Origin: Candidatus Omnitrophota bacterium
GTDB taxonomy: Bacteria > Omnitrophota > Gorgyraeia > Tantalellales > Tantalellaceae
Length of the DNA: 32,537 nucleotides
Direction: 5' to 3'
Assembly (NCBI GenBank): GCA_014728075.1
Contig: WJMG01000007.1
Location: 1-32,537 of the forward strand
Both the position numbers and the translations under genes were made by a program. The notes under the pieces are model-generated. The model did not search any database. It was given only the letters and a program-made list of their open reading frames with translations, and was not told the origin of the DNA. Below are positions 13,268-31,539 of the stretch, piece by piece; the stretch's first letter is position 1, and each line of letters opens with the position of its first letter.

Positions 13268-13374
13268 TGCTTGATCCCGCTTTCGCGGTAATGACATTTT
13301 TTACTTTTGTTCCGAGAGATCAAAGATAGAAATTGTCATCCCCGCAAAGGGTTTGAGCGGGGATCACGATAAAG
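13268..13374. repeat. Palindromic intergenic element, two hairpin arms (MITE-like)
   Basis: The left arm reads TGATCCCGC-TTT-CGCGGTAATGACA and the right arm TGTCATCCCCGC...GCGGGGATCA, so the two arms are inverted relative to each other and each is itself a hairpin. The element fills the gap between efp and accB. A second relative with the same words (GATGTCATCCCCG, ACGGGTTTGA, GGGGATC) lies at 20318-20388. Terminal TGTCAT/GGGATCA words and absence of coding capacity suggest a miniature non-autonomous mobile element. Confidence 0.65.
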
Positions 13375-19820: not shown

Positions 19821-19894
19821 GCGAGCGTAGTACAATGGCAGTACACCAGCTTCCCAAGCTGGCTACGGGGGTTCGATTCCCCTCGCTCGCTCCA
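19821..19894 (+). tRNA. tRNA-Gly (anticodon CCC)
   Basis: A full 74-nt cloverleaf: acceptor GCGAGCG/CGCTCGC, D-arm GTAC-AATGGCA-GTAC, anticodon arm CCAGC-TTCCCAA-GCTGG with anticodon CCC, T-arm with TTCGATT loop, and an encoded CCA end. It would read glycine GGG codons. An intrinsic terminator follows 10 nt downstream. Confidence 0.95.
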
Positions 19895-20174
19895 AATTTT
19901 AAGATAGCCCGGTTGATATTCAGCCGGGCTATTCTTTTCCTTGGGCTTTGATATGTCCCTTCGCAGGATGTAATATTTTCTTCCAGCGGAAAATATTACT
20001 CGATATTGTCCTCGCAAATCTGCTTTTCAAGCAGATACCAAGCTTGCTCGAACAATAGACGCCGTTGTCGTAACATATCAAAGCCCTTCCTGTAGCCATC
20101 TGAATATCAACCGATGTGGCAAATTTGGAGCGAGCGAGGGGAATCGAGATGCTTTCGTAGCATCATTGGGAAGC
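19849..20174. repeat. Large inverted repeat: tRNA-Gly 3' end plus terminator region copied in opposite orientation
   Basis: The right arm (about 20074-20174) on the minus strand repeats, in the same order, the anticodon-loop block GCTTCCCAA, a 27-nt block covering the tRNA T-loop to CCA and beyond (19873-19899 versus 20121-20147), the terminator loop block CGGTTGATATTCAG, and the block GGGCTTTGATATG (19943-19955 versus 20074-20086). Segments between blocks have diverged. The 118-nt centre contains the hairpin GTAATATTTTC/GAAAATATTAC (19970-19999). The right arm lacks a D-arm and 5' acceptor strand, so it cannot be a tRNA. Confidence 0.85.
19904..19938 (+). terminator. Rho-independent terminator of tRNA-Gly
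   Basis: ATAGCCCGG and CCGGGCTAT form a perfect 9-bp stem around an 11-nt loop TTGATATTCAG, followed by TCTTTTCC. It sits directly behind the tRNA. The loop and part of the flank are copied in inverted orientation at 20100-20113. Confidence 0.85.
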
Positions 20175-20317
20175 ATTCAGTTTAGAATGGGGGGGAGTTA
20201 TGTCCCCCAAACCCCCTAAAGTTGTTGTCCCGCTGAATCGTAGACGAGAGCGGGAGTTTATGCATGCGATAGTGGTATAGCGTACCTTTGTTAGGCATAT
20301 AGCAGTAAAAATAAAAG

Positions 20318-20388
20318 ATGTCATCCCCGAAACGGGTTTGAAAGTTTGCCTTTTGTTTGTGATAAGGACATAACGAGTGAGGGGGGAT
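20318..20388. repeat. Second copy of TGTCATCCCCG-type palindromic element
   Basis: It begins GATGTCATCCCCGAAACGGGTTTGA, close to TTGTCATCCCCGCAAAGGGTTTGA at 13337, and ends GGGGGGATCG, comparable to GCGGGGATCA. The middle differs from the first copy. It is likely the same intergenic repeat family. Confidence 0.6.
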
Positions 20389-22562: not shown

Positions 22563-23048
22563 ATGAAAGAACTGTTCCTCCGTAAAAAACTCACTTTCAG
22601 GACAGGCGGCAAAAAGATAGTTCTCGTCAAGAAAAGCAACGAGACCTTTGAGCATGTAGCCGCCAAGGCCGTAGGGTATGCCATGTATCTGCCGGTATAT
22701 CCGCAGGTCAAGATAGAGGTCAAAATAGGGGAAAGGTACAAACCTGACCTGGTTGCCCTGAACGGCCGCGGGGAACCCGTTTTCTGGGCCGAGTGCTGCA
22801 TGGTGGGAAAAACCAAGATCGAGAAGATACTGAACAAGCATCCCAGCGCCCATTTTGCTTTTATCCGAGTTACCGAGCATGTCGACCAGTTCGCGGACCT
22901 GGTCTCTTCGCTCAGGGAGAGGACACGACATAAGGGAAAGCTTGATATAATACGCCTGAAGCCCCCGGTCACCCGATACTTCGACGGGCACGATATAAAG
23001 GTCCCGCCCTTCGGCGAGGCCGTGGAGTATACGGCGGGCGGAGGATAA
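22563..23048 (+). CDS. Conserved hypothetical protein, possible PD-(D/E)XK (YaeQ-like) fold
   Basis: A 161-aa basic soluble protein that I do not recognise with certainty. The segment RYKPDLVALNGRGEPVFWAEC followed by MVGKTKIEKIL has the spacing of a PD-x(n)-E-x-[CG] nuclease-type core with a trailing lysine, as in YaeQ proteins, which place E-x-G before a KRLRKA-like helix. A DNA-processing role would follow from the fold but is speculative. There is no SD and no obvious -10 close to the ATG. It is flanked by the MarC and HdeD genes with no functional link. Confidence 0.6.
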   Translation: MKELFLRKKLTFRTGGKKIVLVKKSNETFEHVAAKAVGYAMYLPVYPQVKIEVKIGERYKPDLVALNGRGEPVFWAECCMVGKTKIEKILNKHPSAHFAFIRVTEHVDQFADLVSSLRERTRHKGKLDIIRLKPPVTRYFDGHDIKVPPFGEAVEYTAGGG

Positions 23049-23136: not shown

Positions 23137-23145
23137 TGGTATAAT
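23137..23145 (+). promoter_or_regulatory. Extended -10 promoter of the HdeD-family gene
   Basis: TGG-TATAAT is a perfect extended -10. Transcription from about 23152 would give a 14-nt leader consisting almost only of the SD AAAGGAGGT. Confidence 0.7.
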
Positions 23146-23756: not shown

Positions 23757-23852
23757 GAGGTACAGGCGGAGGATAGAAAAACAGATGTTGCGGAACCATA
23801 TTTACCTCTACCCGTACCTCAACGAAGCTCTGGCCTGGCGAAGGCCGAAACT
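23757..23852. repeat. Intergenic palindromic repeat, copy A (before the L7/L12-C-like gene)
   Basis: The core GGTACAGG...AACAGATGTT...GAACCA...CTCTACCCGTACC forms an imperfect hairpin, then AACGAAGCTCTGGCCTGGCGAAGGC. Copy B at 24585-24700 repeats these words in the same order and orientation, so the gene between them is bracketed by direct copies. Confidence 0.75.
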
Positions 23853-23942: not shown

Positions 23943-23951
23943 TGGTATAAT
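23943..23951 (+). promoter_or_regulatory. Extended -10 promoter of the secreted L7/L12-C-like gene (leaderless)
   Basis: TGG-TATAAT ends 6 nt before ATG 23958. This is the third gene in the region with this exact leaderless geometry. No SD is present. Confidence 0.7.
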
Positions 23952-23957
23952 ACGAAT

Positions 23958-24536
23958 ATGAAGATCTTTACGGTTTTAGCTCTGACATTGATGCTTTCAT
24001 TGCTCCCGGGGGCCTTTGCGCGGGCAGAGAGACCTGAGGGCTACGCCGTCGAGATACTTTCCTACGAAGGCGACAATGAGTTCCGGGCCATAAAAGACCT
24101 GCAGGAGACCGCCGATATAGGGATGTTCGAGGCGAAACGAATACTTGACTCCATTCCTTCTTTCGTAAAATACGGCCTTACTCTAGAAGAAGCAAATGAC
24201 ATGAAAACATTTCTTGAGATAAAGGGCTTCTCCTGCGTTGTCAAAAAGGCTTCATCGGCGGGCGTCCTGACCGAGAACGGGATGATGAAAGAAAGTTCCG
24301 ACGGACTTTACGCCGTCGTCTACGAAGGAACGGACCTTACACGAATAGAGACAATAAACCTTCTCCGCATACAGACAGGTAACAGCCTTAAAAAGGCAAA
24401 AGACATCGTGGACAGGCCCGGCAGGTCCTCCATCCGTTATTCCATTCCGCTGGAAGAGGCCAGAAAACTCAAATCCTGGTGCGACCGTAACGGGATCCGA
24501 TCCCGCATAGTCGCTAATCCCGGGCGCCCCGGATAA
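23958..24536 (+). CDS. Secreted protein with two tandem ribosomal-L7/L12-C-terminal-like domains
   Basis: The protein has 192 aa. A signal peptide (MKIFTVLALTLMLSLLPGAFARA) is followed by two repeats of about 70 aa. Repeat 1 (about 29-98) reads AVEIL...AIKDLQETADIGMFEAKRILDS...LEEANDMKTFLEIKGFSCVVKK; repeat 2 (about 115-187) reads AVVYE...ETINLLRIQTGNSLKKAKDIVDR...LEEARKLKSWCDRNGIRSRIV. Both follow the L7/L12 C-terminal pattern of an IK/IN helix, a G-L/M-x-EAK helix, then EEA-x-x-(L/M)K and a final strand. In ribosomes this domain binds translation factors, but export makes that role impossible here. The function is unknown. It is flanked by two copies of an intergenic repeat and predicted leaderless. 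Confidence 0.7.
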   Translation: MKIFTVLALTLMLSLLPGAFARAERPEGYAVEILSYEGDNEFRAIKDLQETADIGMFEAKRILDSIPSFVKYGLTLEEANDMKTFLEIKGFSCVVKKASSAGVLTENGMMKESSDGLYAVVYEGTDLTRIETINLLRIQTGNSLKKAKDIVDRPGRSSIRYSIPLEEARKLKSWCDRNGIRSRIVANPGRPG

Positions 24537-24537
24537 A

Positions 24538-24700
24538 GAACATCTGTTTTCAGCGTCAAATTACTGAACTCGAGCCCGGCTAAAGGGTACAGGTAAAGGC
24601 AGAGATATTGAAAACAGATGTTCTAGAACCACACTTATCTCTACCTGTACCTCTATCTTTATCTTAACTACCTCAACGAATCCTCCGGCCTGATGAAGGC
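24538..24700. repeat. Intergenic palindromic repeat, copy B, with a 15-bp perfect inverted repeat
   Basis: GAACATCTGTTTTCA (24538-24552) and TGAAAACAGATGTTC (24609-24623) are exact reverse complements. Overlapping this, GGTACAGGTA...TACCTGTACC (24586-24651) forms a second stem. The words GGTACAGG, AACAGATGTT, GAACCA, CTCTACC and AACGAA...GGCCTG..GAAGGC are shared with copy A. The rest of the 370-nt gap to the fur gene shows only the Fur promoter region. Confidence 0.75.
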
Positions 24701-24906: not shown

Positions 24907-25392
24907 ATGCCGGGCAGGAACGGACGAGGAAGGATCGGGGGAAGGAAATGGCAGGGCATGGTGCGGGGATGCGGTTATCGCCTCACTATACCCAGAAGAG
25001 CCGTAATGGAGGTCCTTTCCTCAACGGATGAACATCTGAGCGCGGAAGAGGTTTACCACCGCGTACACGATCAATACCCGGCCGTAGGCCTGACGACCAT
25101 TTACCGCACGCTGGAACTTCTTTTCGGACTGGGGCTGGTCTCACGGCTGGATTTCGGTGACGGCAGGGCAAGGTACGAGCTTTCGGCGGGTTCGCCAAAA
25201 GGCCATCACCACCATCTCATATGCACCAAATGCAGAAAGGTTATAGATTACACCGAGTTCATAAAGGATGAACTGGAATTTCTTGAACGGGCCGAAAAAG
25301 GGTTGGCGGAAAAATACGATTTTGAGATAAGAGACCATGTGATACAGTTTCGTGGCCTGTGTAAGGATTGTAAGGACAGAAATAACAAGTAA
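24907..25392 (+). CDS. Fur-family metal-responsive regulator with N-terminal MPG-tag extension
   Basis: The protein has 161 aa. The first about 25 residues (MPGRNGRGRIGGRKWQ...) are an unusual Gly/Arg-rich extension resembling the start of the DUF5320 proteins downstream. Then comes a normal Fur: winged helix with RLTIPRRAVMEVL and VGLTTIYRTLELL, and a dimerisation domain with the GHHHHLICTKC metal site and a second CxxC (CKDC) for structural zinc. SD AAGGAGG, ATG 24907. It could be Fur, PerR or Zur by sequence alone; the upstream operator is Fur-like. It is followed at 142 nt by the metal-cluster genes, which it probably controls. Confidence 0.92.
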   Translation: MPGRNGRGRIGGRKWQGMVRGCGYRLTIPRRAVMEVLSSTDEHLSAEEVYHRVHDQYPAVGLTTIYRTLELLFGLGLVSRLDFGDGRARYELSAGSPKGHHHHLICTKCRKVIDYTEFIKDELEFLERAEKGLAEKYDFEIRDHVIQFRGLCKDCKDRNNK

Positions 25393-25400
25393 AATTTCTG

Positions 25401-25510
25401 AAGACCGAATGGTTCGGTCTTTAGAAGTGATGTTTTTCCGGAAACTAAAGTAAAGAAGGAGAGACTTATCGAGAGCTGAACGATCCGGTCTCTCGAGATG
25501 ATTTTTCCCT
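25401..25510 (+). promoter_or_regulatory. Two related hairpin leader elements between fur and the DUF5320 gene
   Basis: Element 1: AAGACCGAA-TGG-TTCGGTCTT (25401-25421), a perfect 9-bp stem, followed by TAGAAGTGATGTTTTTCC. Element 2: GAACGATCCGGTCTCTCGAGATGATTTTTCC (25478-25508 region) repeats the same string with changes and can fold as GAGAGAC/GTCTCTC (25459-25494) or CGAGAG/CTCTCG (25470-25495). The T5 runs suggest partial terminators or attenuators. The duplicated layout suggests a regulatory leader of the cluster. Confidence 0.6.
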
Positions 25511-25534
25511 TCACAAAAAATAAGGAGGTGTGTT

Positions 25535-25858
25535 ATGCCGGGTTTTGACGGAACAGGACCGAGAGGGATGGGGCCGATGACCGGTGGCGGCCGCGGATAC
25601 TGCGCTGTTCCCGCGGGCCAGGGTTACTCAAGATATCCCGCCGGGAGACCTTACGGATACGGCAGAGGAGGCGGAAGAGGCTTCAGGAACCGTTTCTACG
25701 CTACGGGTCTCTATGGCTGGCAGAGGGATATTTACGCCCAGAGGCCGCCGGCGCGGGAGGAAGCCGCGATACTTAAGGCCGAAGCGGAAAGCCTGAAGGC
25801 GGAGCTTGAGGAAATTCAGGACCGTTTAAAAGCTATCGAAGGCGAAAATAACGAATGA
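25535..25858 (+). CDS. DUF5320 family protein
   Basis: The protein has 107 aa. The Gly/Pro/Met-rich N-terminus MPGFDGTGPRGMGPMTGGGRGYC is the hallmark of DUF5320, followed by a Tyr/Gly/Arg-rich middle and a charged C-terminal coiled coil (about residues 73-104, EEAAILKAEAESLKAELEEI). These small proteins accompany NifX/NifB-type and MinD-ferredoxin genes in many anaerobes; no function has been shown. SD AAGGAGGTG. A single Cys (about 23) may contribute to metal binding. It opens the metal-cluster gene set. Confidence 0.88.
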   Translation: MPGFDGTGPRGMGPMTGGGRGYCAVPAGQGYSRYPAGRPYGYGRGGGRGFRNRFYATGLYGWQRDIYAQRPPAREEAAILKAEAESLKAELEEIQDRLKAIEGENNE

Positions 25859-25880
25859 CAACTTATCGGAGGTACCGCTT

Positions 25881-26288
25881 ATGCGAATAGCTATATCTAC
25901 CGACGGGGGTGATGTATCCGCTCATTTCGGAAGGTGCCCCTCGTTCACGCTTTTCAATGTGGAAAGCGGAAAAGTTACGGGAAAAGAGGAAGTCCCTAAC
26001 CCGGGACACCATCCGGGTTTTCTCCCCGATTTCCTTCAGGGGAAAGGCGTCAATTGTATTATCGCCGGCGGCATGGGCCAAAGAGCTTCCATGCTTTTCG
26101 GACAGAAGGGAATAGCTGTGATCGTCGGCGTCGAGGGCGATGTCGACGAAGCCGCCGAGGCCTTCGCTTCGGGGAAACTTTCAGGCGGGGAAAGCCTCTG
26201 TAAACCCGGCGCCGGAAAAGGTTACGGCGTGGAAAAAACCGAATGTGATCATGCTGAAGAAGATGGTCACGCCCATCAGGGAGGATAA
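25881..26288 (+). CDS. NifX/NifB-associated (MRA, dinitrogenase Fe-Mo cofactor-type) protein 1
   Basis: The protein has 135 aa. MRIAISTDGGDVSAHFGRCPSFTLF is the N-terminal strand and loop of the dinitrogenase iron-molybdenum cofactor-biosynthesis family (PF02579), and CIIAGGMGQRASMLFGQKGIAVIVG its core. The C-terminal tail is His/Asp/Glu-rich (CDHAEEDGHAHQGG), a likely metal-binding appendage. NifX/NafY/NifB-C proteins bind FeMo-cofactor precursors; stand-alone relatives occur in organisms without nitrogenase and presumably carry another Fe-S or metal cluster. No nif structural gene is visible here. SD GGAGGT. Confidence 0.93.
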   Translation: MRIAISTDGGDVSAHFGRCPSFTLFNVESGKVTGKEEVPNPGHHPGFLPDFLQGKGVNCIIAGGMGQRASMLFGQKGIAVIVGVEGDVDEAAEAFASGKLSGGESLCKPGAGKGYGVEKTECDHAEEDGHAHQGG

Positions 26289-26293
26289 AGATC

Positions 26294-26659
26294 ATGAAGA
26301 TATGCGTAACATCGGAAGGTAGTTCCGCGGATGCCGCTATAGATCCCAGGTTCGGCAGGTGCGCCTATTTCGCCATAGCCGATACCGAAACCGGGGAGAT
26401 AGAATTCCTTCCCAACGGGAACAGGGACGGAATGGGAGGAGTTGGAGTCCGTTCCGGCCAGCTGATGGCCGAAAAGGGAGTAAAGGCCGTTCTCACGGGT
26501 AATGTCGGGCCGAACGCCTTTGACACCCTTAAGGCCGGCGGTATAAGCGTTTATACCGGGCTATCGGGCAAAGTGTCGGAGGCGGTTGAAAAGTTCACCA
26601 GGGGCGGCCTCGAGACCGGCGAAGGCCCCAGCGTGGATCCCCATCACGGGATGAAATAA
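26294..26659 (+). CDS. NifX/NifB-associated (MRA) protein 2
   Basis: The protein has 121 aa, a paralogue of the previous gene and only 5 nt after its stop. It has MKICVTSEGSSADAAIDPRFGRCAYFAI, the GNVGPNAFDTLKAGGISVYTG core and a C-terminal DPHHGMK tail. The typical GRC motif is present in both copies. The pair may form a heterodimer or carry different cluster intermediates. SD GGGAGGATAAAG. An IS110 element is inserted right after it, separating it from the ferredoxin gene. Confidence 0.93.
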   Translation: MKICVTSEGSSADAAIDPRFGRCAYFAIADTETGEIEFLPNGNRDGMGGVGVRSGQLMAEKGVKAVLTGNVGPNAFDTLKAGGISVYTGLSGKVSEAVEKFTRGGLETGEGPSVDPHHGMK

Positions 26660-26699
26660 ATGTAACATATACAAGGAGATGATACGATAAAAATCAAGT

Positions 26700-26870
26700 A
26701 ACAGCGGTGTAGCTTCTGACATAAAATAATAATACGTCAGGAGTAGATTAGGTTATAGGCTGTATCGTTTTACTGAGGCAGATGACCTCGACAAGGAGAT
26801 TAACTAGTACCTATAACTGAGTCGTCACCATAGGGCATATGACCCTGAATAGGAGGATGGGTGACACCGC
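26700..26870 (+). ncRNA. Candidate bridge RNA of the IS110 element
   Basis: Three hairpins lie in order upstream of the transposase. H1: CTTCTGAC/GTCAGGAG (26713-26743). H2: GTTATAGG/CCTATAAC (26752-26817) with inner GAGG/CCTC stem and a large internal loop. H3: GTCACC/GGTGAC (26824-26865) with inner AGGG/CCCT stem and internal loop. H2's loop contains ACAAGGAGAT (26791-26800), identical to the left target flank (26671-26680). H3's loop contains ATAGGAG (26849-26855), identical to the right IS end plus core (27978-27984). This is the layout expected of target- and donor-binding loops in IS110 bridge RNAs. Confidence 0.72.
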
Positions 26871-26914
26871 AAAAGATGTTCTGCTCTAAGACGTACAAAG
26901 ACAGGGGGTAAGAT

Positions 26915-27943
26915 ATGAAAAGGTATGTTGGAGTAGATCTTCACAAGAACAATTTTCAAGTATGTTACTTGAGCAAGAGAGAGGTCAAACAAGAAGTTTT
27001 TGAAGTAAGTCGGTCTGGGATAGAAGAGTTCAAAGAGAGCTTGAGAAGAACGGATGAAGTAGGGATAGAGGCCACAGGCAACGCGAGGTATTTGACAGGA
27101 GAAATAGAGGGCCAGGTAAAGCGGGTGGTAATTATAAACCCCTGGCAATTTAAGGTAATAAGTCAATCCGTTAAGAAGACAGACGAAGAAGACGCTAAAA
27201 CGATAGCCAAGTACATGAGCAAGGATCTGGTTCCTAAAGTGAGGATGAGAAGCAAAGAAGAGCAGGAGATATCGAGTTTAATAACCACAAGAGATAAGTT
27301 GGTTAAATTAAGAACATCGCTAAAGAACAAGGTACATGGTATTTTGAACGCGAACGGCTATGTGACAAAGAAAGAGATGTTCTCAGGTAAAAAAGTTTTT
27401 GAAACCATCTTTGATCTGGAGATAAGTGAAGCATATAAATTTGAGTTGAAAGTGATAGTGGGTCAGATAAAGAGTTTGACAAAAAGTATAGATGAGATAA
27501 CGGAAGAATTGAGCAAACGAGGCAGAGGATTAAAAGGGTACAAAAGTTTAAAAAGCATAACAGGTATAGGAGATGTATCGGCGACGATAATGTTAAACGC
27601 TATAGGAAATGTAAAAGATTTTGAAAATGAGGACAAATTATCGGCGTATTTTGGGATAGTGCCTCGGATTAGCAACTCAAATGAGACGATTCGGCAAGGA
27701 CGGATAACAAAGATGGGCAATAAGATAGCAAGAACAGCTTTGGTGCAATCGACATTAATAGCGATTAGATACAATCCGTATTTACGATCATTTTACGAAA
27801 GATTAAAAGCTAAAAAAGGCTCGGGTAAGGCAATTATAGCGACATCGAGAAAATTGTTGGGGATAATTTATCGAGCGTTAAAATATGATTTAGTATATGA
27901 AGATTTTAATCGTTACCAATTGGCGGTAACGCGGACAAAATAA
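26915..27943 (+). CDS. IS110-family transposase (DEDD recombinase)
   Basis: The protein has 342 aa. The N-terminal RuvC-like DEDD domain shows Asp8 in YVGVDLHK, Glu52 in GIEATG, and Asp90/Asp93 in KTDEEDAKTIAKY. A helical middle region follows, then the C-terminal Transposase_20 domain with LKSITGIGDVSATIML, FGIVPRISNSNETIRQGRITKMG (catalytic Ser expected among Ser253/Ser255) and RTALVQSTLIA. Length and motifs are complete, so it is probably active. A long 5' non-coding region and short 3' end place it in the IS110 rather than IS1111 group. SD GGGGGTAAG. It is read in the same direction as the host cluster. Confidence 0.95.
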   Translation: MKRYVGVDLHKNNFQVCYLSKREVKQEVFEVSRSGIEEFKESLRRTDEVGIEATGNARYLTGEIEGQVKRVVIINPWQFKVISQSVKKTDEEDAKTIAKYMSKDLVPKVRMRSKEEQEISSLITTRDKLVKLRTSLKNKVHGILNANGYVTKKEMFSGKKVFETIFDLEISEAYKFELKVIVGQIKSLTKSIDEITEELSKRGRGLKGYKSLKSITGIGDVSATIMLNAIGNVKDFENEDKLSAYFGIVPRISNSNETIRQGRITKMGNKIARTALVQSTLIAIRYNPYLRSFYERLKAKKGSGKAIIATSRKLLGIIYRALKYDLVYEDFNRYQLAVTRTK

Positions 27944-27990
27944 AAGTCTTACGAGTAGATTAGACTTGATTTTTAACATAGGAGGGTTAG

Positions 27991-28155
27991 ATGTCCGTTT
28001 CTATAGATAAGGAAAAGTGCACGGGCTGTAGCGCCTGCGTAGAGGTGTGCCCCGTGAACGCGATAAGCATGGAAAACGGAAAAGCCGTTGTAAGCGACGC
28101 ATGTATAGACTGCGGCGCGTGTATAGCACAATGTCCCGTTGAAGCTATATCATAA
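27991..28155 (+). CDS. Small 2[4Fe-4S] ferredoxin (54 aa, missed by the ORF track)
   Basis: An open frame of 54 codons with start ATG 27991 and SD GGAGGG 6 nt upstream. Two complete bacterial-type cluster motifs are visible: CTGCSACVEVCP (Cys10, 13, 16, 20) and CIDCGACIAQCP (Cys38, 41, 44, 48). It is a clostridial-type 2[4Fe-4S] ferredoxin, a low-potential electron carrier in the cytoplasm. It was too short for the 60-aa track cut-off. Its SD lies exactly at the IS110 insertion junction. It likely supplies electrons to the MinD-ferredoxin proteins or to the flavoprotein downstream. Confidence 0.95.
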   Translation: MSVSIDKEKCTGCSACVEVCPVNAISMENGKAVVSDACIDCGACIAQCPVEAIS

Positions 28156-28252
28156 GAGTATCCAGAGCGGTCCCGTTCCGGCACATCGATCGGGGGAGAA
28201 ACACCGGGACCTATCTGTGAGTTCGGGGCGGCAGACAGACAGGAGGTGTATT

Positions 28253-28447
28253 ATGCCCGGAAGGAACGGAACAGGCCCCGCCGGCAGGGGCCGGTCCGCA
28301 GGACGCGGTACGGGAAGAGGTAACAGGCCCGGCGCGGGAGCTGACTGCGTATGCCTTAAATGCGGGAATAAGGTCCCGCATACCCCGGGAGTACCCTGTT
28401 CCTCGCTTCAATGTCCGCAATGCGGATATAAGATGATAAGGGAGTGA
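28253..28447 (+). CDS. Small Cys-rich zinc-ribbon-like protein with MPG tag
   Basis: The protein has 64 aa from ATG 28253, which has the SD AGGAGGTG; the track start at 28139 is wrong because its N-terminus is random sequence. The first half, MPGRNGTGPAGRGRSAGRG, matches the DUF5320-like tag. The second half holds six cysteines arranged as CVCLKC and CSSLQCPQC, a zinc-ribbon or rubredoxin-like knuckle pair. A related small family occurs with MinD-ferredoxin genes in anaerobes. It may bind zinc or iron. It lies between the ferredoxin and the first MinD ATPase. Confidence 0.82.
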   Translation: MPGRNGTGPAGRGRSAGRGTGRGNRPGAGADCVCLKCGNKVPHTPGVPCSSLQCPQCGYKMIRE

Positions 28448-28452
28448 AAACA

Positions 28453-29313
28453 ATGATAATTGCCGTAGCCAGCGGAAAAGGGGGAACGGGTAAGACGACC
28501 GTCGCTACCAATCTTTCTCTTTCCATAGAAGGCGAGAAACAGCTGCTTGATTGTGATGTAGAAGAACCCAATTCCCATATTTTCATTAAACCGGAAGCCG
28601 TCGAAAAGGGAACGGTCTATGTCCGTACGCCCGAAGTGGACCCTGAAAAGTGCGTCCTGTGCGGCAAATGCGCCGAGGTCTGCGCGTATAACGCTATCGC
28701 GGTTATACCCTCAAGCGATACTTCAAAAGGGCGGGTGATGGTGTTCGAAGAGCTTTGCCACTCATGCGGTGCGTGTTCATATCTGTGTCCCGCCGCGTGT
28801 ATAAACGAAAAACCCAGGAAAATAGGTATCGTGGAGACCGGTTCGCGGGGCGCCTTGAGCTTTGCCGCCGGAACGCTCAATATAGGGGAGGCAATGGCCC
28901 CTCCGGTCATAAGGGCCGTCAAAAAGAAGGCGGACGGGAATACCGTTATTATCGACGCCCCTCCGGGCACTTCCTGTCCCGTGATAACGGCGGTCAAGGG
29001 GGCGGACTTCTGCGTGTTAGTGACCGAACCTACTCCTTTCGGGCTTAACGACCTGGTGCTTGCCGTGGAGGTCCTGAGGGAAATGAATATACCGTTCGGG
29101 GTGGTCATAAACCGTTCCGACCTGGGGGACGGAAAAACAGCCGGGTATTGCGCCAAGGAAGGCATACCGATACTGATGGAAATACCTTTCAGCAGGGAAA
29201 TAGCCTCGGCTTACGCCGGAGGCATACCCGCGGTTGAGGCCTTTCCCGAAATGAAAAAAGATTTTGCCGACCTTCTGGCCCGGATCCGTAAAATACTTAG
29301 CGAGAGGAGCTGA
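28453..29313 (+). CDS. MinD-superfamily P-loop ATPase with inserted ferredoxin domain, 1
   Basis: The protein has 286 aa from ATG 28453 (SD GGGAG 8 nt upstream); the GTG at 28444 is less likely. The deviant Walker A GKGGTGKTT (about 9-17) is followed by an inserted ferredoxin domain with CVLCGKCAEVC (Cys67-77) and CHSCGACSYLCPAAC (Cys102-116), and the switch motif DAPPGTSCP. The family resembles Mrp/NBP35 and NifH in fold: an ATP-driven conformational switch coupled to [4Fe-4S] clusters. It is paired with a second such ATPase two genes on, and the two could form a heterodimer that delivers electrons or clusters. Confidence 0.95.
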   Translation: MIIAVASGKGGTGKTTVATNLSLSIEGEKQLLDCDVEEPNSHIFIKPEAVEKGTVYVRTPEVDPEKCVLCGKCAEVCAYNAIAVIPSSDTSKGRVMVFEELCHSCGACSYLCPAACINEKPRKIGIVETGSRGALSFAAGTLNIGEAMAPPVIRAVKKKADGNTVIIDAPPGTSCPVITAVKGADFCVLVTEPTPFGLNDLVLAVEVLREMNIPFGVVINRSDLGDGKTAGYCAKEGIPILMEIPFSREIASAYAGGIPAVEAFPEMKKDFADLLARIRKILSERS

Positions 29314-29319
29314 AAGACC

Positions 29320-30672
29320 ATGAAAGAGAAGACCGACATACTGATACTTGGGGCCGGTCCGGCGGGTATGATAAGCGCCCTCACGGCCCTGAAATATTAC
29401 CCCGATAAGCAGATCACTGTCCTCAAGAGCGTAGCGAAAGGGGTCGTCCCCTGCGGAATACCGTACATGTTCTCGAGCCTGACGGATCCCGAAGACAACG
29501 AACTGGACACAACGGGTCTTGAGAAAAAGAGGGTTAGAGTGCATATTGACGAGGCTGTCACGCTGGAGCGCGCAAAAAAGACGGTGTTAACGCTCTCCGG
29601 AAAAGAGTATTCCTATGAAAAGCTGATCGTAGCCGTCGGTTCGAAGCCGATCGTCCCGCCTATACCCGGAATAGACAAAGAAGGTATATACCCCATACTA
29701 AAGGATATGGAATACCTTAAACAGATGGTGGAGAAAGTAAGATCCGGCGGTAATGTGCTTGTCATAGGAGGAGGTTTTATAGGAGTCGAGTTCGCGGACG
29801 AAGTATCCAAAATACCTTCCTGCAAAGTACGGCTCGTGGAGATCCTTCCCCGCCTGCTTTCGCGTTCCTTCGACCCCGAATTTTCCTGTGAAGTGGAGGA
29901 AAAGCTAAGATCCCGCGGCGTAGAAGTGCTCACCGGTCGTAAGGTCACGGCCTTTCTGGGGGATAAAAAGGTTACAGGAGCGCGTTTTGAGAACGGCGAA
30001 GAGTTTGCGGCTGACAGAGTGATCCTGGGCATAGGGGCCGTGCCCAACACGGAACTGGCCTCCCTGGGAGGAATAGAGTTAAGGAAAGCTACCGGCGGGA
30101 TCTGGGTGGACGAGTACATGAGGACCAGTGACAGCGATATCTTCGCCGTGGGAGACTGCGCCGGAAAGAGGGATTTTTACACCCATAAGGACACTTCCGT
30201 AATGCTGGCCTCGACCGCGACGGCCGAAGCGCGTATAGCGGGCGCCAACCTGTACAGCCTGAAAGTCGTGAGAGAGAACAAAGGGACCATAGCCGTATAT
30301 TCGACTTATGTGGACGGCCTGGTGCTCGGTTCAGCGGGGCTTACCGGGTACTCGGCCGACAAAGAGGGTTTCGAGACAATAACCGGATCTGCAGAAGGTA
30401 TGGACAAGCATCCCGGAAAGCTTCCGGGCTCCGGGAAACTGAAGGTTAAACTTATCTTCTCAAAACAGAGCGGCACGCTTATGGGCGGACAGGTGTCCGG
30501 CGGTATTTCCGCGGGCGAAATGATAAACATAATAGGAATGGCCATACAGCAGAGGGTTTCGGTATCCGAGCTGGAAACGCTGCAGATGGCGACACATCCT
30601 TTTCTGACGGCGGCTCCTACAAAATATGGCATAGTGGTGGCGGCCCAGGACGCTTTGAGCAAAATGAGGTGA
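29320..30672 (+). CDS. FAD-dependent pyridine nucleotide-disulfide oxidoreductase, CoA-disulfide reductase/NADH oxidase-like
   Basis: The protein has 450 aa. The FAD-binding Rossmann motif GAGPAG is at residues 11-16, the redox cysteine Cys45 lies in VPCGIPY, the NAD(P)-binding GGGFIG is at about 150-155, and the second FAD contact in FAVGDC at about 275-280. A C-terminal dimerisation domain ends with THPFLTAAP. A single redox Cys in xxCGIPY is the arrangement of CoA-disulfide reductases, NADH oxidases and persulfide reductases rather than of dithiol enzymes. It starts 6 nt after the first MinD gene and could reduce a thiol/persulfide or feed electrons to the ferredoxin ATPases. The substrate is unknown. 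Confidence 0.9.
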   Translation: MKEKTDILILGAGPAGMISALTALKYYPDKQITVLKSVAKGVVPCGIPYMFSSLTDPEDNELDTTGLEKKRVRVHIDEAVTLERAKKTVLTLSGKEYSYEKLIVAVGSKPIVPPIPGIDKEGIYPILKDMEYLKQMVEKVRSGGNVLVIGGGFIGVEFADEVSKIPSCKVRLVEILPRLLSRSFDPEFSCEVEEKLRSRGVEVLTGRKVTAFLGDKKVTGARFENGEEFAADRVILGIGAVPNTELASLGGIELRKATGGIWVDEYMRTSDSDIFAVGDCAGKRDFYTHKDTSVMLASTATAEARIAGANLYSLKVVRENKGTIAVYSTYVDGLVLGSAGLTGYSADKEGFETITGSAEGMDKHPGKLPGSGKLKVKLIFSKQSGTLMGGQVSGGISAGEMINIIGMAIQQRVSVSELETLQMATHPFLTAAPTKYGIVVAAQDALSKMR

Positions 30673-30681
30673 GGGAAAATA

Positions 30682-31539
30682 ATGAAACAGATAGTGGTCA
30701 TAAGCGGAAAAGGCGGGACCGGTAAAACAATAGTTACTTCCTCTTTCGCGGCTCTGGCGAAAAATAAAGTAATGGCCGATTGTGATGTCGACGCGGCGGA
30801 CCTGCATCTAATACTCGAACCGGACATAAAGGAAAGGCACATATTCAAAAGCGGCTTCACCGCCCGGGTGAACAGGGAAAAATGCGGGGAATGCGGCAAA
30901 TGCAGAGAGATCTGCAGGTTTGACGCCGTGACGGATGACTTTCGCGTGGACCCCGTTTCCTGCGAAGGCTGTTTTTTCTGCAGCCGCGTATGCCCCGAAG
31001 GCGCCATTGAGATGGTAGAGAACACCACCGGTGAATGGTTCCTCTCCGGCACCCGTTTCGGTCCCATGGTGCACGCTAAACTGGGTGTCGCGGAGGAGAA
31101 TTCGGGGAAACTGGTCACGCTGGTCAGAAACAAGGCAAAAGAGGTCGCGGAAGAAAAAGGATGTGATACCGTGATAATAGACGGATCGCCCGGCACCGGA
31201 TGCCCCGTTATAGCCTCTCTTTCTGGTGTCGACCTGGCCCTTGTGGTTGTCGAACCTACGATGTCGGGTCTTCACGACGCCGACAGGGTTATCCGGGTAG
31301 CGGAAAGGTTCGGGATAAGAACGAGCATGATCATAAACAAATACGACCTTAACATGGAGGTGACTTCCCGGATAGCGGTTTTTTCCGGAGAAAAGGGGAT
31401 AGAGCTCCTGGGTAAGATCCCTTTTGACAGCAAGGTCGTTAGCGCCCTTATCGAGAAAAAGACGACACCCGAGGTGCCCGGCTGCGAGGCGGGAGAAGCG
31501 ATAAGGGAGATATGGGGAAAGATCCTGGTCCGGGTCTAG
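30682..31539 (+). CDS. MinD-superfamily P-loop ATPase with inserted ferredoxin domain, 2
   Basis: The protein has 285 aa with Walker A GKGGTGKTI (about 9-17), inserted clusters CGECGKCREIC (Cys68-78) and CEGCFFCSRVCP (Cys94-104), and DGSPGTGCP. It is a diverged paralogue of the protein at 28453. Such pairs are encoded together with NifX-like proteins in many anaerobes. It starts 9 nt after the flavoprotein gene. The likely role is ATP-dependent cluster or electron transfer within the same system; direct evidence is not visible in the sequence. Confidence 0.95.
   Translation: MKQIVVISGKGGTGKTIVTSSFAALAKNKVMADCDVDAADLHLILEPDIKERHIFKSGFTARVNREKCGECGKCREICRFDAVTDDFRVDPVSCEGCFFCSRVCPEGAIEMVENTTGEWFLSGTRFGPMVHAKLGVAEENSGKLVTLVRNKAKEVAEEKGCDTVIIDGSPGTGCPVIASLSGVDLALVVVEPTMSGLHDADRVIRVAERFGIRTSMIINKYDLNMEVTSRIAVFSGEKGIELLGKIPFDSKVVSALIEKKTTPEVPGCEAGEAIREIWGKILVRV

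Follow-up and report, generated by a model that had tools for sequence, protein, structure and literature searches.

A stand-alone tandem of L7/L12 C-terminal domains with a predicted signal peptide in a Candidatus Omnitrophota genome

Within a 32,537-nucleotide stretch of DNA from a Candidatus Omnitrophota bacterium, referred to as the window, we have characterized a gene encoding two diverged copies of the C-terminal domain of the ribosomal stalk protein L7/L12 (L12-C), here termed D1 and D2, behind a putative Sec-type signal peptide (Table 1). The reading frame of 192 amino acids starts with ATG, ends with TAA and contains neither a stop nor a frameshift. Its codon usage is typical for the genome and clearly coding-like, with this frame being the best of six, and the coding character of the gene is, like the identity, number and fold of its domains, directly evident from computation. 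We infer that the diverged domains, exported as a tandem via Sec, would constitute a small extracytoplasmic protein-binding adaptor, a role to which we assign about an even chance.

Table 1. Features of the tandem gene and its immediate surroundings (positions in the window).
Feature	Position	Strand	Basis
Upstream copy of a dispersed intergenic imperfect palindrome, outside the gene	23758..23820		Sequence comparison
Candidate extended -10 promoter element TGGTATAAT	23943..23951	+	Pattern scan, consensus match only
Whole gene, predicted exported tandem L12-C protein, 192 aa	23958..24536	+	ORF, Pfam, sequence features
Predicted Sec-type signal peptide MKIFTVLALTLMLSLLPGAFA	23958..24020	+	Hydrophobicity and AXA motifs
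D1, first L7/L12-C domain, residues ~27-98	24036..24251	+	Pfam PF00542, shuffle test, alignment-free model
Linker, residues ~99-112	24252..24293	+	Model: low confidence, little secondary structure
D2, second and more diverged L7/L12-C domain, residues ~113-188	24294..24521	+	PF00542, shuffle test, model
Downstream copy of the intergenic imperfect palindrome	24591..24653		Sequence comparison

Two L12-C domains and their fold

The comparison of the encoded protein with Pfam identified the L7/L12 C-terminal family PF00542 with an E-value of 1.1e-14 and a score of 54.9 bits (cut-off 25.9), distributed over two stretches, and no other family above its own cut-off. A scan of the genome with PF00542 separates the copies, with 35.9 bits for positions 24057-24242 and 22.6 bits for positions 24315-24476. 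An L12-C profile derived from the ribosomal proteins found in relatives gives 40.0 bits for D1 and 22.1 bits for D2, compared to a maximum of 11.2 bits among 4000 shuffled sequences of the same domains. The earlier note on this DNA had proposed two L7/L12-C-like domains and no other, which is confirmed by the twofold match to PF00542, the large distance of both scores from the shuffled sequences and the otherwise empty Pfam scan. The two domains are 32% identical to each other over 60 residues (E=3e-5, for a single comparison), and D2 shares about 23-33% identity with L12.

The mature protein, modelled by AlphaFold without an alignment, shows the beta-alpha-alpha-beta-alpha-beta order twice, at a pLDDT of only 54.5, and a Foldseek search of the PDB with this model returned L7/L12-C as best match (probability 0.99, several entries), followed by ClpS. 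D2, when modelled from an alignment that combined D1 with the L12 domains of ribosomal proteins, reached a pLDDT of 88.5, with L7/L12-C structures as top PDB matches at TM values of up to 0.83. Since this alignment favours the L12 fold, the alignment-free run constitutes the more independent evidence. Models and PDB comparison agree in assigning to the protein the arrangement of strands and helices that defines PF00542, and the structural comparison with L7/L12-C that had been suggested as a check identified this domain as the closest match for both models.

The shared fold and the ranking of ClpS behind L7/L12-C in both searches would be compatible with a ClpS-like peptide-binding protein engaged in N-end recognition, which would serve as protease adaptor in the periplasm. 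We consider this most improbable, since at the sequence level the protein matches L12-C, the Pfam scan lists no match to the ClpS family at E<=10 and the PDB identities of the D2 model amount to about 9-14% for ClpS vs 20-28% for L12.

In L12 of E. coli, the residues I69, K70, R73, A83 and K84 belong to the helix pair that is used for GTPases, and G79 is likewise among the residues used for them. The residues matching I69, A83 and K84 are kept in both domains, K70 is retained in D1 only and R73 in D2 only, with R73 being replaced by Q in D1, and K70 by N and G79 by S in D2. The helix pair itself is well kept in the tandem protein. Since the contact residues are only partly kept, the ancestral binding of GTPases has probably been lost in D1 and D2.

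Predicted export and proposed role

In the N-terminus MKIFTVLALTLMLSLLPGAFARAERPEG, a single lysine and a hydrophobic core are followed by a Pro-Gly break and two AXA motifs, which together support the signal peptide that the earlier note had anticipated. The core (residues 3-16) shows a mean Kyte-Doolittle value of 2.56 over 14 residues, resembling the membrane proteins encoded in the window, and the rest of the protein contains no comparable hydrophobic stretch. Candidate cleavage motifs are AFA/RA (after residue 21) and ARA/ER (after residue 23). These features of the sequence strongly suggest that the protein is exported via Sec and that its mature form, with a mass of about 19 kDa after cleavage, would be periplasmic or secreted. 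The N-terminus might instead persist as uncleaved anchor that tethers both domains to the inner membrane, on its outer face, which would leave the adaptor role unchanged. Such tethering would agree with the presence of a single hydrophobic stretch near the N-terminus and with the location of Lys2 ahead of it, which according to the positive-inside rule favours an N-in/C-out orientation. We regard it as unlikely, though, since signal peptides that are cleaved usually show such a Pro-Gly break with two AXA motifs behind it and since the hydrophobic core, at about 14-16 residues, is short.

The candidate promoter element TGGTATAAT ends 6 nucleotides upstream of the ATG, and no ribosome-binding site fits between the two; the motif ATGGTATAATAC recurs at the upstream gene, at position 23137. 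At this distance of the element, the transcript would be expected to start at about the ATG, which makes a leaderless message with M1 as natural start codon likely. The assignment of the start also bears on a scenario where the protein would be a cytoplasmic stalk mimic that modulates translation, with its N-terminus being either an anchor with the domains facing inside or the result of a mis-annotated start. Although translational GTPases are bound by L12-C domains (PMC10931766) and K84 is retained in D1 and D2, we hold this to be very unlikely: the sole alternative start in the region, M12, resides inside the hydrophobic core, the TATAAT element points to M1, the contact residues are partly lost and the protein is devoid of the N-terminal dimerisation domain required to reach L10.

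For the favoured extracytoplasmic adaptor, we infer a mode of action in which a protein that descended from L12-C-type domains would have left its ribosomal role. Upon export by the Sec pathway, the two domains, joined by their short linker, would act outside of the cytoplasm, where each might present the face of its two N-terminal helices, which in L12 holds the GTPases, to an extracytoplasmic partner. The calculated pI is 4.6 for D1 and 10.0 for D2, and the acidic D1 and the basic D2 may each bind a partner of their own or, alternatively, copies of one another. An exported tandem that stands alone in this way would suggest that the fold is detachable from translation and usable outside of the cytoplasm and, should a partner be identified, would be a natural case of a core translation domain repurposed as extracellular binding module.

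Occurrence, neighbourhood and repeats

Among 59 related genomes searched at E<=0.01, matches occur singly and at the level of ribosomal L12, and those that were aligned are ordinary ribosomal L12. No relative was detected in any other genome of a 384-genome sample of the phylum at 1e-9, close-relative scans found none among 84,980 species genomes or in viral contigs, and none was found in plasmids. Five phage records match D1 weakly, presumably through ribosomal L12 of the host in records that lack annotation. With no relative in genomes, plasmids or viral contigs, the tandem gene is, at this depth of search, a singleton specific to its lineage. The inspection of homologues and their neighbours, which the earlier note had also proposed, thus came back empty in these genomes for homologue and conserved neighbour alike.

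The gene is located just upstream of a conserved Fur-NifX-NifX-MinD/Mrp block. In several relatives that contain the block, neither the tandem gene nor the DUF308 gene was found beside it, and since the block is kept without the tandem gene alongside, an operon comprising both was rejected. In the window, the block (24907-31539) encodes a Fur-type regulator, a small Gly-rich protein, two NifX-like proteins and two MinD/Mrp ATPases with ferredoxin-like inserts, and it is interrupted by an inserted IS110-type transposase (26915-27943). A separate frame of 161 residues at 22563-23048 (KIEVKIGERYKPDLVAL...) shows no match in Pfam or NCBIfam and, on inspection only, looks like a nuclease-fold protein.

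A gene that arose recently in this lineage and has little or no function under selection, with a duplicated L12-C fragment that had been combined with a signal peptide and is now drifting, would account for the lack of relatives beyond ribosomal L12 in all three genome collections and for the downstream block that occurs in relatives without the tandem gene. We view this explanation as doubtful, since D1 and D2 are far from L12 and yet have kept the full fold in an intact frame with genome-typical codons, whereas drift over such distance would normally break the reading frame, and since the promoter element is in register with the start.

The two 63-base repeats flanking the gene are 76% identical. 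The bracketing described in the earlier note is in this respect real, but a special meaning of it is not upheld, since the repeats are members of a family of imperfect palindromes, each about 65 bases long, with about ten copies scattered over the genome, mostly in intergenic regions (about eight further places, L055-L063). Members of the family have the sequence AGGTACAGGTAAAGGCAGAG...CTCTACCTGTACCT with a conserved central core near GAAAAAGGATGTTCCAGAACCA, and the single-strand folding of the repeat shows nothing out of the ordinary (z -0.3 and -1.8). As the repeat is dispersed genome-wide and not specific to an element, its two copies around the tandem gene make no cassette, and a composite transposon or mobile cassette was rejected. 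Elsewhere in the window, a second short repeat, TGTCATCCCCG(A/C)AA(A/C)GGGTTTGA, occurs at 13322-13356 and 20307-20341 with 83% identity, and a perfect 27-base inverted repeat connects positions 19873-19899, where a tRNA gene (about 19824-19897) apparently has its 3' end, with an inverted copy located 221 bases downstream (20121-20147).

Relation to bL12 and other uses of the fold

The assignment of the gene as ribosomal bL12 was ruled out. The bL12 equivalog model TIGR00855 scores 47.5 bits vs a cut-off of 84.4 and matches with its positions 51-125 only; positions 1-50, and with them the dimerisation domain and the Ala/Gly-rich hinge of bL12, are unmatched and a putative signal peptide is found instead. 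The best L12-C match of the genome is a normal rplL (105.5 bits), which is located on contig C20, away from the tandem gene. D1 and D2 share their fold and detectable sequence homology with the C-terminal domain of bL12 (PF00542; PDB 1ctf, 1dd3, 2zjq), the common docking site of translational GTPases (PMC10931766). The tandem protein differs from bL12 by its predicted export, its two domains, the missing dimerisation domain and hinge and the partly changed GTPase-contact residues. With the ClpS adaptor, it has the superfamily fold in common.

Domains of the L12/ClpS type recur outside of ribosomes in multidomain proteins, as insertions in the vWA-beta-propeller proteins found in bacterial conflict systems (PMC7159879), which resemble the tandem protein in their reuse of the fold. 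Whereas those domains lie within the vWA proteins that belong to MoxR-vWA systems of Bacteroidetes, the tandem is stand-alone and predicted to be exported. Within the phylum of the window, a sister class often has proteins with an N-terminal L12-C-like domain preceding a long, mostly coiled-coil-like region. These proteins (e.g. L038, L043 and L049) also contain a non-ribosomal L12-C-like domain but, unlike the tandem protein, only a single one at the N-terminus, with no signal peptide seen and 400-600 mostly coiled-coil-like residues following. In the loci L037-L049 of this class (families f56, f60 and f63), the L12-C-like domain carries a conserved NTPLILxxxLSF-type stretch. A short membrane-anchored protein encoded in genome G235 (L053:1873-2223) includes the helix pair of L12-C and no other part of that domain (KIPAIKLYREINGVGLKEAKEAVEKL), with a second match resembling it at G235:C75:2506-2595. 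In the partial collection of literature searched, we have come across no description of an exported tandem of L12-C domains. Its novelty is reduced by the non-ribosomal uses of the L12/ClpS fold that are already described (PMC7159879) and present elsewhere in the phylum, and the tandem gene presents a known domain in a new architecture.

The class of the window contains another L12-C domain on a predicted exported protein. This frame of 294 residues (L052:5-886; genome G374, contig C77) combines a prepilin-like N-terminus with a PKD domain (58.6 bits) and a C-terminal L12-C domain (PF00542, 70.4 bits); its prepilin motif is weak and below its own cut-off, with the sequence FTLLELIV being typical, and the protein is unique in its family. 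In contrast to the tandem protein, of which it is not an orthologue, it has a single L12-C domain that is near true L12 and placed on a PKD stalk behind the prepilin-like N-terminus. Judged from sequence, it would represent a second, independent case of an exported L12-C domain in the class, both cases being singletons. This case strengthens the recruitment of the fold as periplasmic or surface binding module, as envisaged in the earlier note, which we consider the most plausible reading. A far-reaching and rather improbable extension would regard the tandem as dedicated two-faced extracytoplasmic adaptor in a class where the export of domains derived from the ribosomal stalk recurs, on pilin-like stalks as well, with the stalk domain serving as general exportable docking module.
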